Below are positions 2,524 through 11,994 of a DNA stretch of 64,000 bases, one piece after another (position 1 is the first letter of the stretch; each line of letters opens with the position of its first letter). This DNA is from Fervidobacterium nodosum Rt17-B1 (GTDB lineage Bacteria; Thermotogota; Thermotogae; Thermotogales; Fervidobacteriaceae). The translations under genes were made by a program, and so were the position numbers. The stretch covers positions 744,001 to 808,000 of the forward strand of contig NC_009718.1 in assembly GCF_000017545.1 (NCBI RefSeq). Direction: 5' to 3'. The notes beneath the pieces were generated by a model, which was not told where the DNA came from, did not search any database, and worked only from the letters and a program-made list of their open reading frames with translations.

Positions 2524-2564
2524 CATAAAGGTTTTAAAAATATCCTAAAATTAGGTGGTCAAAA

Positions 2565-4829
2565 ATGTTTTTGAACTTCCTTCAACAATACAACTTAACA
2601 AAAGATCAAATACATGCAGCTAAAAAACTAGAAGATTTTATTTATGATTATCTAGATTTTCTAATCATTCAAGGTAGCGCTGGTACAGGTAAAACGTTTT
2701 TAATATCTCAGTATGTGAGATATCTCTTCGAAAAAGGAAAAAGCTTTGTAATTCTCGCACCAACTGGTAGAGCTGCTAAAATCCTTCACGAAAAATCCGG
2801 ATTTGAAACTAAGACTATTCACAGTGAAATTTACAGTTTTTCCCATGAGAAAGTAGATTTGGAAAGTGAAATCATCAAAGTATATTTTTGTTTAAAAAAA
2901 CCACAACGTGATAACACAATTTTCATAGTAGACGAAAGCTCGATGATTTCAGACAATAAACAATCAGACGAGGAACTTGTCTTTGGGAGCGGAAAATTGC
3001 TCTCCGACTTTATCGAATATGTAAAAAGCGGTGAAAACAACAAAATTATATTTTTCGGGGATGAATACCAACTTCCACCAACAAATTCCGCTTTTTCCCC
3101 GGCATTAGATGTTAAAACCCTTCAGGAAAATTTTCATTTAAAGGGCGAAAAGATTTTTCTTAACGAAGTTGTTAGGCAAAGAACCCAAAGTAAAATATTA
3201 AATAATGCAAATACAATTAAAAAACATATCGACGATGAAAATTACTTAACTCTAAAGTTTGAGTACGACGGTGACGAATTTGTCAAAACACATGATTTCA
3301 TAAAGGAATACAATTACTCAAATCCTGGCGAAGATATCATAATTGTTTCAACAAACAAAAAAGCTTTGGAGTACAATATGGAAATTAGGAAAAAGCTCGG
3401 ATTCCAAAGCCAAATTGAAGTAGGCGATATATTACTTAATACAAAGAATGTTTACTGCAAAGATAAAGTAGTATTTAACGGCGAATTTTTTAAAGTCGAA
3501 AAAGTAATAAATTATGAGGGAAAAGACGCATTTGTTGGAAGAAAAAAGTATGTTTTGGAATTCTACGATTTAGAACTAAAAAATATAAATTCTGGTGAGA
3601 TTATAGAATCCAAAGTATTTTTGAATTCCTTATTTTCAGAAACCGCAGATATAGATTCGGATTTAAAGAAAGCATTGTTTAGCTTTTGTATAGATGATAT
3701 GCACAAGAAAACAGGTTTATCACAAAAAAGTATTACTCAAAATCTAAGTAAATACCTTCAAGATAACCCCTACTTAAACGCATTACACGTAAAATATGGT
3801 TACGCTATAACTGCACACAAATCTCAAGGTGGAGAATGGGATAGAGCTTTTATAGACCCATATTATTACAATTCTACAAAAACTAAGGAATATTTCAGAT
3901 GGTTATACACATCGATAACCAGAGCCAAGAAAAAAGTCTATATAAAGGATTTACCAATAAAAATCTTTTCATTTAACAAATTGAAAATTCAAAATGATTT
4001 CACTTTAAGAGAAAAAATCAATATTTCATACAATTTGAACTTTAACAATGAAATGTTAAGAGAACTATACACAGCTTTTGAAAGCATAATATCTAAACAT
4101 TCATTTAACGTATTGGGCATAGAGCATCTCCAATACCAAGAGGTTTATTATATCAAAAGTGGTAATCATTATCTCAAAGTCCAACTATATTACGATAAAA
4201 ATTATGAACCAACAAGTCTGAAAATTTTGGAAACAACCAACAACGAACAAGCACTAAAAATGTTGAGTATCATCAATTCAGAAGTTCAAAATTCTAATAA
4301 TTTTAATATTGATAAAAACAATAAAATTAATTCTATTTCTATAAGCAGGTGTATGAAAAAGACTTTAGAAAACGAATGCGTAAAAATCTATATAGACGGA
4401 AGCTACGACGAGTCCACGAAAAAAATTGGCGCAGGTTTTGTTGTTGTAAAAGAAAGCAATGAAGAGAAAATAGAAACGTACTGGAGAGGTTTCTCAAACC
4501 CAGAACACGTAAAACACCGAAATGTGGCTGGTGAAATATATGCAGCATTGCTGGCATTTGAATATGCGAAGAATGAAAATCTGAAATGCATAGAAATTAA
4601 CTATGACTACGAAGGTATAGAAAAATGGGCTCTTGGTTTGTGGAAAACAAATACTAGCTTAACAAAATTATACAAAGAAAAGTACGATTACTATTCCACT
4701 TTTTTCAGAATAAAATTCAATAAAGTCAAAGCTCACACTGGGGAAAAATACAACGAAATAGCCGATAATTTAGCAAAGAAAGCTGTTAATGAAGAAAAAT
4801 ACCATGTAAAATATGAAATTGATTTATAA
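2565..4829 (+). CDS. RecD/Dda-like SF1B helicase fused to a C-terminal RNase HI domain
   Basis: A 754-residue two-part protein. Residues about 15-470 form a superfamily 1 helicase: Walker A GSAGTGKT (37-44), Walker B IVDESS (near 123), motif III FFGDEYQLPP, motif IV VVRQR, motif V TAHKSQGGEWD and motif VI YTSITRAKKKV. These fit the RecD2/Dda/TraA-type SF1B group (5'-3' translocases by family). Residues about 605-745 form an RNase HI domain with all four acidic residues visible: D611 (YIDGS), E657 (AGEIYAA), D681 (NYDYEG) and D734 (IADNLAKK), with HTG just before the last helix. Residues 470-600 are a linker with no motif I recognise. Inference: it unwinds and cuts RNA-DNA hybrids such as R-loops. 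The start has AGGTGGTC at the proper spacing. Confidence 0.88.
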   Translation: MFLNFLQQYNLTKDQIHAAKKLEDFIYDYLDFLIIQGSAGTGKTFLISQYVRYLFEKGKSFVILAPTGRAAKILHEKSGFETKTIHSEIYSFSHEKVDLESEIIKVYFCLKKPQRDNTIFIVDESSMISDNKQSDEELVFGSGKLLSDFIEYVKSGENNKIIFFGDEYQLPPTNSAFSPALDVKTLQENFHLKGEKIFLNEVVRQRTQSKILNNANTIKKHIDDENYLTLKFEYDGDEFVKTHDFIKEYNYSNPGEDIIIVSTNKKALEYNMEIRKKLGFQSQIEVGDILLNTKNVYCKDKVVFNGEFFKVEKVINYEGKDAFVGRKKYVLEFYDLELKNINSGEIIESKVFLNSLFSETADIDSDLKKALFSFCIDDMHKKTGLSQKSITQNLSKYLQDNPYLNALHVKYGYAITAHKSQGGEWDRAFIDPYYYNSTKTKEYFRWLYTSITRAKKKVYIKDLPIKIFSFNKLKIQNDFTLREKINISYNLNFNNEMLRELYTAFESIISKHSFNVLGIEHLQYQEVYYIKSGNHYLKVQLYYDKNYEPTSLKILETTNNEQALKMLSIINSEVQNSNNFNIDKNNKINSISISRCMKKTLENECVKIYIDGSYDESTKKIGAGFVVVKESNEEKIETYWRGFSNPEHVKHRNVAGEIYAALLAFEYAKNENLKCIEINYDYEGIEKWALGLWKTNTSLTKLYKEKYDYYSTFFRIKFNKVKAHTGEKYNEIADNLAKKAVNEEKYHVKYEIDL

Positions 4830-4835
4830 AATATA

Positions 4836-4869
4836 AAAAAGGCTCCGGTAATATCACCGAAGCCTTTTT
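4836..4869. terminator. Bidirectional intrinsic terminator between convergent genes
   Basis: A 14-bp stem with one mismatch, AAAAAGGCTCCGGT / ACCGAAGCCTTTTT, around the 6-nt loop AATATC. It has a T run on both strands and sits 6 bases after the helicase-RNase H stop and 24 bases before the decarboxylase stop, so it can serve both converging genes. Confidence 0.88.
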
Positions 4870-8594: not shown

Positions 8595-9836
8595 ATGAAT
8601 TTTAATCCTTTTATACCAAATGAAATAATCGAAAAATTAAACGATGATATAAAAAACGATGTTATTAATTGGAACAAATTGGATGTTGTATATCTTAAAT
8701 TTATTAACGTACCATACGAAATTGAAAATTTTATATACAGACAAATCGCAAAATATGGATTAGTACCAATAAATATAGACTATACAGATTGTACATATCA
8801 CACAATAGATTCTTCAGATTCTTCAAACAATATGGTTTCATCAGATTCAACTTCGGTCATATTATCTCCTATGATTTCCAAATGTGAACCTATCATATTT
8901 TCAACAGATGACTCGTTTATTTTAATTGAATATGGTAATGATGAATACGCTTTACCAATGAATTTGGTTTACGAATTTCCTAACACCTTAGCTCAGTTGA
9001 TTGAAAGTATTATAAAAAATGATATTATTTATGAAAATTTGGCTGATGCCAAAAATGATAATATCTTAAAAACTATAGTTGTAGATCAAAAAACTGGTTC
9101 TTCTTTTCTTACTCAATTTATTGGAATTACTTATTTCATTCAAAATGATAAATTAGAATTACTACAAGGTAAAGTTATATATAGCGCTAAGACAAACAAT
9201 GTCGAGGCGGTTAATATCGATTTACTGGAAAAAGAGTTACAAAAAAATGATGTGGTTGCAATAACATCTGATAGTGTGGTGACAAAAGAATACATATATA
9301 ATCTAAAGACAAAGTCTCTAACAAAGTTCCAAGCACCTATAGTTTCAATATGGGATAATTATGTACTATACTCAGATGGAAGTATATCTGATTTATCTTT
9401 TACTTGGAATACAAAGATTAGTAATTCGCCGTTGGATTATATATTTACTGAAAACAGAATATGCATTCTTGACATCTCAGGCCAAGTGGTTATAATGAAT
9501 CAGAAAACACGCAGAATACTTTTTTCAAAAACATTTGAAGGAGCTTATTCTCTAAGTTTAGACAAAGATAATTCATTTATTGTTAAAACTACAAATGGAT
9601 GTTATAAAATATCTGGCGATAAAGACGTAAATCTTATAGAAAAAGGAGCCAATGAAACATATGAAGAAAGTTCTAAATTTAATATATTTTACCCCTCTTT
9701 ATTGGACATTTTTCACACTCCATTTGGCTTTTTCTACAAAGGGAATTTTATAGGTAATGAAATATCTGGATTTTATATAAAAGATAAAACAGCACATGTC
9801 ATTACGGAAGTGGGAACTTGGAAAATAAAGTTCTAA
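8595..9836 (+). CDS. Hypothetical protein, possible beta-propeller in its C-terminal half
   Basis: I do not recognise this 413-residue protein. There is no signal peptide or membrane segment. Residues 1-60 are charged and probably helical; about 68-84 is a Ser/Asp-rich low-complexity stretch (DSSDSSNN...SSDST); from about 215 on, short strands recur in the style of a beta-propeller (VVIMNQKTRRILFSKTF, ending WKIKF). The start ATG lies 5 bases after truA with no clear ribosome site, which suggests translational coupling. Its end overlaps tlyA by 19 bases. Base composition is like its neighbours. Confidence 0.7.
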   Translation: MNFNPFIPNEIIEKLNDDIKNDVINWNKLDVVYLKFINVPYEIENFIYRQIAKYGLVPINIDYTDCTYHTIDSSDSSNNMVSSDSTSVILSPMISKCEPIIFSTDDSFILIEYGNDEYALPMNLVYEFPNTLAQLIESIIKNDIIYENLADAKNDNILKTIVVDQKTGSSFLTQFIGITYFIQNDKLELLQGKVIYSAKTNNVEAVNIDLLEKELQKNDVVAITSDSVVTKEYIYNLKTKSLTKFQAPIVSIWDNYVLYSDGSISDLSFTWNTKISNSPLDYIFTENRICILDISGQVVIMNQKTRRILFSKTFEGAYSLSLDKDNSFIVKTTNGCYKISGDKDVNLIEKGANETYEESSKFNIFYPSLLDIFHTPFGFFYKGNFIGNEISGFYIKDKTAHVITEVGTWKIKF

Positions 9837-10609
9837 GACTTGATCAGTTATTAATTTTGAAAGGTTTTGTTGAAAGTAGAACGAAGGCTCAACAAATGAT
9901 TGAAAACGGGCTTGTACTATTAGATGGCAAAGTATGTACAAAACCATCAAAAAAATGTCATTCAGATTCAAAAATTATCATTCTTGATGATTTAAAGTAC
10001 GTTAGCAGAGCAGGATATAAACTTGAAGGTTTATTAAAAGAATATAAAATAGATGTTAGTGGAAAAATAGCATGTGATATAGGCAGTTCAACAGGTGGAT
10101 TTATAGATTGCCTTCTTCAAAATGGTGTAAAAAAGGTTTATGCTGTTGACGTAAATACAAAACAGTTACACTCAAAGATTTCTTTAGATGATCGTGTTGT
10201 GAAAATTGAAAAAAATGCACGGTATATTTCTAAAAAAGATATAAGTGACAAACTTGATATAATAACAATTGATGTCTCTTTCATATCCATCACAAAATTA
10301 CTGGAAGGTATTCTTCAATTGTCTGAAAATTACACAAAAATAATATCACTAATAAAACCTCAATTCGAAACAACAAATACGGATAAGGGTATAGTAAAAG
10401 ATAAAAAAACTCATATTGAAGTCATAAGAAAAATTGTCAAAGCTTTCCGTGATGAAGGCCTATACTGCGAATACTTAACATATTCGAAATTACCAGGTGC
10501 TGATGGCAATATAGAGTTTTTTGGTGTATTTTCAAAAGAACCTGTACACTCTATAAGCAAAAGTGATATAATAAGTATCGTAGATACAGCTTGGGAGGAA
10601 CTAAAATGA
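9818..10609 (+). CDS. tlyA: TlyA-family rRNA methyltransferase (S4 + FtsJ-like)
   Basis: TlyA enzymes 2'-O-methylate cytidines in rRNA (16S/23S in mycobacteria) and were first named haemolysin A. The 263 residues show an N-terminal S4 RNA-binding domain (RLDQLLILKGFVESRTKAQQ, residues 6-25) followed by a Rossmann methyltransferase: CDIGSSTGGFIDCLL (motif I), KKVYAVDVNTKQL (motif II) and ITIDVSFISI (motif IV), with LIKPQFE after. TTG start at 9818 with GGAAGTGGG upstream; the overlap with the previous gene suggests co-translation. The exact rRNA target is unknown here. Confidence 0.9.
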   Translation: MENKVLRLDQLLILKGFVESRTKAQQMIENGLVLLDGKVCTKPSKKCHSDSKIIILDDLKYVSRAGYKLEGLLKEYKIDVSGKIACDIGSSTGGFIDCLLQNGVKKVYAVDVNTKQLHSKISLDDRVVKIEKNARYISKKDISDKLDIITIDVSFISITKLLEGILQLSENYTKIISLIKPQFETTNTDKGIVKDKKTHIEVIRKIVKAFRDEGLYCEYLTYSKLPGADGNIEFFGVFSKEPVHSISKSDIISIVDTAWEELK

Positions 10610-11994
10610 AAAAGTTGTTAACTTTGCTATTTATAATCATTATAATATGTTATACATTTGCCGATTCGGATATTTTCAACTTTGTACACAAAGATTATGA
10701 CTTCATAATAAGATTGTCTAAAGGTGGCGCTTGGTATAAAGAATTAAAAAAGGTTTCGTTTTTTTCTTTTGTTTTTGATAGGAAAGGATTAGGATTCGAA
10801 GACTCATTTCTTAGAATACTTGAAGATATGAAATATAAAACTGGTGTACAGCCAACAGTTGTTCAAGACGCTCTTTCAAATGATATACTTTTTGCATCAA
10901 AAGGAGCGGAGGTAGATTTCACAACATTAATTTCTTTCGATATAAATTACTACCTGGAATTTATAAAAACTATAACCGGAAGTAGCTTCATAGTTTTTGA
11001 AAGCAAGTATCCCGTTCAACTTGTAAAAGCGTTATCATATTTGTTGTCCGTTAATTTTAAAAATCTCCAAAACAATATCTTTCAACTTGGCGAATCGCTT
11101 TTTTGCACATCTACTGGGAAATACTTAATATTAGCTGGAAGCAAACAGACTTTAGACATGGCGATAAAAACTTATACAACCCCAGAAATGCAACTTTCAA
11201 GAACAAATAAAGATTTTGATAGATTAAAAGCGGGGGTATTTTTTATAAGTGGCTTTGCAAAACCAAATACGCTGAAATTGAATTTACCTGGTGGAATAGG
11301 AATAGAAGATTCAACAGCAAGTCATTTACTCATTACATCAAGTATCTCAGCTGGCTCTTTTACATTTACAATAGAGCAAAAAAACACGAAACAATACACA
11401 AGCTCAAAGAATATAGACACAATGGGTCAATTACCCAAAGTTTGGAATTACTATCTGAGTATACCTTCGTCAAAGTCATCGATAATTATCGGATCTATTG
11501 AACAATGGTTTTCAGGCGTAACATCTGAACTTCAGCAACTTACAAATCTGGTAAAGAATCTTTCAAATTCTTCTACAAATACTTACGTCGCTGGTAAACT
11601 CGAAGTTGGTGAAATAGTCTTTATATTTGAAAATTACAGTGGGAAAGACTTTGAAACAAATCTCTCGAAACTTGGTGCAAAGTATGATAGTCAGAAGCAA
11701 GAATGGGTTATTAATCTTCAGAATTCAAAACTATACGCGTTCAAGTCATCTAATAAAGTTATAGTTGGTACAGTCGATAAAAACAGCTTTGAAAAGTATG
11801 AAAAAACTAGCAAAAAATTGAAAGATTTACCAATTTACTATGATTTTTCAAAGATAGAAGCATACGATTTTAAAGCACTTATGGATTTAGGTGATATAAT
11901 TAAATCCATTATTGGATTTAATATAACTTCCAAGTTACTTTTTTGGCAATATTCAATAGGTTACATAACTTACTATAAATTTGTTGTCTCCTGA
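10606..11994 (+). CDS. Hypothetical exported protein in the chemotaxis operon
   Basis: About 462 residues. An N-terminal signal peptide (MKKLLTLLFIIIIICYTFAD) is followed by an extracytoplasmic region with no motif I can name and no second clear membrane span. ATG at 10606 overlaps the tlyA stop and has GGGAGG 7 bases upstream; a TTG at 10591 would start before that site. The gene ends 14 bases before cheA. Inference only: an envelope or periplasmic protein co-expressed with chemotaxis genes. Possibly a lipid-binding or inhibitor-like fold, but nothing decides this. Confidence 0.7.
   Translation: MKKLLTLLFIIIIICYTFADSDIFNFVHKDYDFIIRLSKGGAWYKELKKVSFFSFVFDRKGLGFEDSFLRILEDMKYKTGVQPTVVQDALSNDILFASKGAEVDFTTLISFDINYYLEFIKTITGSSFIVFESKYPVQLVKALSYLLSVNFKNLQNNIFQLGESLFCTSTGKYLILAGSKQTLDMAIKTYTTPEMQLSRTNKDFDRLKAGVFFISGFAKPNTLKLNLPGGIGIEDSTASHLLITSSISAGSFTFTIEQKNTKQYTSSKNIDTMGQLPKVWNYYLSIPSSKSSIIIGSIEQWFSGVTSELQQLTNLVKNLSNSSTNTYVAGKLEVGEIVFIFENYSGKDFETNLSKLGAKYDSQKQEWVINLQNSKLYAFKSSNKVIVGTVDKNSFEKYEKTSKKLKDLPIYYDFSKIEAYDFKALMDLGDIIKSIIGFNITSKLLFWQYSIGYITYYKFVVS

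Follow-up and report, generated by a model that had tools for sequence, protein, structure and literature searches.

Does a gene that joins a helicase to a ribonuclease H encode a single enzyme acting on RNA:DNA hybrids, and where did its parts come from? RNases H and the helicases that remove hybrids are usually separate proteins. Such a gene lies in the window analyzed here, a 64,000-nucleotide stretch of the Fervidobacterium nodosum Rt17-B1 genome (NC_009718.1, positions 744,001 to 808,000). An earlier reading by a model, made from the letters alone, had proposed an SF1B helicase of RecD2/Dda type fused to RNase HI, a pairing that it could not name as characterized; no characterized helicase-TBP-RNase HI protein was found in the open-access papers searched. 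We looked for a stop or frameshift between the two halves and found none: a single uninterrupted reading frame of 754 amino acids runs from an ATG start with no internal stops. A probable ribosome-binding site lies on its upstream side, six bases from the ATG, and a terminator separates it from its downstream neighbor, a convergent decarboxylase-like gene. The features are collected in the table.

Table. Features of the fusion gene and its immediate surroundings (window positions).
Feature	Position	Strand	Basis
AGGTGG, probable ribosome-binding site	2553..2558	+	sequence reading; inference
Helicase-TBP-RNase HI fusion gene, 754 aa	2565..4829	+	ORF read, Pfam, relatives
SF1B helicase module, residues 1-465, PDC-M16A/TOTE type	2565..3959	+	Pfam, PADLOC, alignment
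Walker A GSAGTGKT, residues 37-44, K43	2673..2696	+	sequence, alignment
Motif II DESS, residues 123-126	2931..2942	+	sequence, alignment
Motif III GDEYQLPP, residues 165-172	3057..3080	+	sequence, alignment
Motif V TAHKSQGGEW, residues 416-425	3810..3839	+	sequence, alignment
Motif VI LYTSITRAKK, residues 447-456	3903..3932	+	sequence, alignment
TBP-like lobe, residues 496-564, PF22721 TBP-TOTE	4050..4256	+	Pfam E=5e-17; relatives; predicted structure
Fast-evolving linker, residues 567-600	4263..4364	+	dN/dS; low confidence in AlphaFold model
RNase HI domain, residues 603-754, DYxGIxxWA subtype; D611, E657, D681, H724, D734	4371..4829	+	Pfam, alignment, fold search
Stem-loop/T-run terminator	4836..4869		between fusion gene and convergent decarboxylase-like gene

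Pfam placed AAA_30/AAA_19 at residues 25–219, UvrD_C_2 at 411–460 and RNase_H (PF00075) at 606–741 (E=2e-10), all above cut-off. Reading frame, Pfam and alignment together confirmed the complete SF1B signature residues and a D-E-D-D RNase HI site in one chain, and the residues named by the sequence-only reading (K43, D611, E657, D681 and D734) were correct. The profile search that it had suggested for both halves and for residues 470–600 recovered the helicase and the RNase H. The 470–600 segment, taken there for a linker, is not a plain one and holds a TBP-like domain.

SF1 motifs I–VI are present in the helicase, and the nine intact fusions described below are identical in the alignment at G37, G40, G42, K43, T44, D123, E124, D166, Q169, R204, H418, Q421, G422, T449, T452 and R453. 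By these motifs the SF1B assignment held. Membership of RecD2 was rejected, the helicase reaching only 110.7 bits against the equivalog cut-off of 500 bits for TIGR01448. A PHROG Dda-like model gave E=1.6e-61, and the top-scoring match by far was the PADLOC model PDC-M16A (E=3e-130). Since most Thermotogota genomes lack RecD2, we make no claim that the fusion replaces it.

TOTE denotes the TPR, OB, TBP, Effector conflict systems (PMC12458937). PDC-M16A-type proteins encoded on plasmids of E. coli and Klebsiella, and in some viral contigs, have the layout helicase-TBP-TBP. A second gene follows, which on the E. coli plasmid carries DUF7017 and S1CSD-TOTE-2. In the fusion, likewise, a TBP-TOTE lobe comes after the PDC-M16A helicase. 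It carries one lobe and then RNase HI, where the plasmid proteins have two lobes in tandem. No TPR/DUF7017 and S1-CSD partner adjoins the gene in the window, and neither DUF7017 nor S1CSD-TOTE-2 was detected in F. nodosum or any other fusion genome. Weak S1CSD-TOTE-2 matches in other Thermotogota, the T. maritima control included, are probably generic S1 domains. A complete TOTE system was rejected because this partner is absent. The similarity suggests PDC-M16A as either the ancestor or the sister of the helicase-TBP part; PDC-M16 is itself only a candidate defense family. A TOTE-like pair was also observed in a further Thermotogota genome (G052, L107:985-4675), comprising a C-terminal helicase domain with two TBP lobes and then TPR/DUF7017. 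No Pfam helicase model matches its N-terminal P-loop part, where the alignment shows several signature residues to be missing; this helicase is possibly a degenerate motor.

The TBP-like lobe was examined by profile and by predicted structure. All seven TBP-RNaseH relatives match PF22721 at E≤0.01, three of them under the curated cut-off. An AlphaFold model of residues 466–754, built on a 12-sequence alignment, had a mean pLDDT of 84 (~94 for the lobe) and predicted a helix, four strands and a helix for the lobe, followed by the RNase H fold; the whole protein modeled from its single sequence gave pLDDT 38. A PDB fold search with the former model provides no independent support for the lobe, as its top 50 contained no TBP structure and the full-length matches among these came from RNase H1 and a small number of reverse transcriptases. 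The putative TBP assignment is based on the Pfam profile and the predicted topology. By Pfam and predicted secondary structure, the lobe precedes the nuclease domain as it does in the grip of RNase H3. Taken by itself, the TBP-like N-domain of that enzyme bound RNA/DNA hybrid only (PMC4132731). By analogy, the lobe of the fusion may bind hybrids.

The nuclease itself is of the RNase HI type. The D-E-D-D tetrad and the flexible-loop histidine lie within an RNase H fold, all five residues are identical across the nine intact fusions, and the modeled domain matches RNase H1 structures of E. coli, human and archaea. The type-2-like catalytic domain of RNases HII and HIII, which would mark an RNase H3, is not found here: the domain matches PF00075, and the sole PF01351 match in the F. 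nodosum genome lies elsewhere, at 1437338.

A search of 103 Thermotogota genomes for this layout yielded nine intact fusions of 722–767 amino acids and one broken copy. The carriers are F. nodosum, two members of the same family (G011 and G019) and all seven genomes of genus g20 in family f9. In the broken g20 copy (G089) the gene is split, probably through assembly error, since purH and RNase HII are split in that assembly too. A scan of genome contigs used one query sequence, finds close relatives only and has little bearing on phyla other than Thermotogota. Every domain of the fusion is under purifying selection, with pairwise dN/dS mostly 0.06–0.23: about 0.11–0.19 for the helicase, about 0.06–0.17 for the RNase H domain and about 0.2 for the TBP lobe, apart from one noisier value of 0.58. 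The linker between lobe and nuclease evolves fast. That the fusion is a sequencing error joining two genes, or a decaying gene, has next to no probability; the split copy could be cited for it, with the caveat about that assembly given above, and it is ruled out by the nine intact fusions and the low dN/dS.

The RNase H complement of the carriers was then compared. In six of the seven g20 genomes no RNase HI other than the fusion could be detected, and RNase HII was found in all seven. Searches with the fusion profile and with PF00075 agree on this, which matters because PF00075 alone overlooks some stand-alone RNases HI, as in G001. Sister genera of g20 within the family carry an RNase HI with a classical hybrid-binding domain (HBD). 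Two more RNase-H-type genes are present in F. nodosum (C1:616442-616840 and 1777803-1778201), so the fusion need not be essential there. The former belongs to another subtype. Most congeners have a stand-alone RNase HI of DYxGI type; neither of the two genes encodes this protein, which was not found in F. nodosum. Stand-alone TBP-RNase HI proteins occupy conserved loci in two related genera. They occur in Thermosipho-like genera, and four Thermosipho-like genomes have no other RNase HI.

Three genomes encode a hybrid-binding domain, RNase HI and RnlA (RNase LS) toxin domains in a single chain (G033 L231:283-1875, G012 L232:889-2349 and G087 L233:1020-2501). As E. coli RNase HI interacts with and regulates RnlA (PMC5308261), and TBP-like lobes have been reported in RnlA (PMC7221094), these chains look like direct genomic evidence for an RNase HI/RnlA partnership.

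In F. nodosum the fusion is flanked by an MFS gene and the decarboxylase-like gene. None of the eight Fervidobacterium congeners has it at this site, where only F. nodosum carries the 2.3-kb gene. The two flanking genes adjoin on one contig in seven of them, with a gap of about 100–190 bases; in the fragmented assembly of the eighth (G005) both lie at a contig end and the decarboxylase gene is cut by the contig boundary. The F. nodosum helicase is 62–67% identical to four g20 copies and 53–54% identical to two of its own family, which points to transfer from a g20-like donor; the fusion is probably a recent single-gene arrival. Inspection of the junctions by eye revealed no direct repeats or mobile element. 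Within g20, five genomes share the same nitroreductase downstream of the fusion, with purD upstream in three of these, and this kept neighborhood argues for vertical inheritance. A phage origin of the whole fusion was rejected, no match among phage and plasmid records covering 80% of the protein, and none of the 90 helicase ORFs in the plasmid and viral loci examined carries a fusion-type RNase H.

The order of assembly was addressed with a TBP-RNaseH tree; being midpoint-rooted, this is compatible with either TBP-RNase HI or the fusion coming first. The TBP-RNase HI of a Thermosipho sp. MAG (G016, L021:8001-8834) nests inside the fusion clade, even though it is placed at the locus common to its Thermosipho relatives, and grouping it with its locus-mates was rejected (p-AU 0.017). 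Here the helicase was probably lost, or a fusion-type segment gained by recombination.

We propose, with a probability of roughly 60%, that the fusion is a housekeeping enzyme for taking RNA:DNA hybrids apart. Its SF1B motor, drawn from a TOTE-type conflict helicase, would load on single-stranded DNA beside a hybrid and translocate, presumably 5'→3' as judged from its relatives. The TBP lobe would anchor the hybrid, the role of the hybrid-binding domain in other RNases HI, and the RNase HI domain would cut the RNA. Translocation would then strip the RNA fragments and move the nuclease along. R-loops and lagging-strand primers would be the likely substrates. We infer the ATPase activity and polarity of the motor, the binding of hybrids by the lobe, the cutting of RNA, the coupling of motor to nuclease, and these substrates. 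Hybrid removal, which the sequence-only reading had also put forward, appears the likeliest task of the single chain, and its idea of a special fitness for high temperature gained no support.

A housekeeping role is favored by the status of the fusion as sole RNase HI in most of g20 and by its kept neighborhood there, together with the lack of any PADLOC match among nine immediate or near neighbors at five fusion loci. The absence of a DUF7017 partner, the intact helicase and RNase H sites under low dN/dS, the resemblance of lobe plus RNase H to RNase H3 and the four Thermosipho-like genomes with TBP-RNase HI as their sole RNase HI point the same way. Against it weigh the kinship of the helicase-TBP part with a candidate defense family, the patchy distribution, the movement as a single gene and the position of the G019 copy, which has a type III-A csm/cas6 cluster some 1.5 kb away. 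These same observations suit a defense system of one protein against phages or plasmids. It would be a streamlined relative of TOTE whose helicase-TBP part senses foreign nucleic acid and whose RNase HI acts as effector on RNA primers, R-loops or replication intermediates. So do the strength of the PDC-M16A match, the occurrence on plasmids and in viral contigs of related helicase-TBP-TBP genes that have TPR/S1-CSD partners, and a helicase-TBP protein without RNase H in G013. Its gene and the one directly beside it, which matches CRISPR-Lon/SAVED4 models, occupy L106:7493-9328 and 9348-10865; upstream lie a CRISPR-T-like gene and a GajB/RTasHel-like helicase. We nonetheless consider defense unlikely, given the sole RNase HI in six g20 genomes, the conserved housekeeping neighborhood, the missing TOTE partner and the candidate standing of PDC-M16. 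Less probable still is that the TBP-RNase HI half alone matters to the cell, with the helicase carried along as a loosely coupled passenger. Stand-alone TBP-RNase HI proteins are widespread among Thermosipho-like genera, and the G016 protein implies that the helicase can be lost; the helicase motif residues, however, are all invariant and its dN/dS is low.

The housekeeping reading suggests a history that we offer tentatively, as something short of an even bet. A conflict-system helicase-TBP protein may have been recruited to housekeeping when its second TBP lobe was swapped for RNase HI, or when it joined a pre-existing TBP-RNase HI. The product would be a self-contained finder, unwinder and digester of RNA:DNA hybrids. 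In one genus it would have taken the place of the ancestral RNase HI, and it would travel from family to family as a single gene. The fusion would in this way link a candidate defense family to housekeeping hybrid metabolism. A single chain with helicase, TBP-like grip and RNase HI would be a ready model for the coupling of unwinding to RNA cleavage, and its status as sole RNase HI makes its function testable by removal of one gene.

Several known systems resemble parts of this protein. RecD2 and Dda have the SF1B motifs in common with it, whereas the fusion falls far under the RecD2 cut-off and adds TBP and RNase HI. The helicase subunit of PDC-M16A/TOTE shares its signature residues and the TBP-TOTE lobe directly after the helicase; the fusion differs in having RNase HI in the position of the second TBP, no N-terminal extension and no TPR/S1-CSD partner gene. 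TALON YprA helicases are joined to a C-terminal RNase H-fold domain and keep TOTE-like company (PMC12458937), yet pair a YprA-family helicase with an inactivated RNase H fold, in contrast to the SF1B motor and intact active site seen here. The HBD-RNase HI proteins of the sister genera (Cauli_VI + RNase_H) combine a small N-terminal binding domain with a related RNase HI bearing the same DYxG motif; in the fusion a TBP-like lobe replaces the HBD and a helicase is attached. RNase H3 (RNase HIII) also has a nuclease of RNase H fold with a TBP-like lobe on its N-terminal side (PMC4132731). The fusion, with a type 1 (RNase HI) rather than type 2/3 catalytic domain and an attached helicase, is a further pairing of TBP-like lobe and RNase H.
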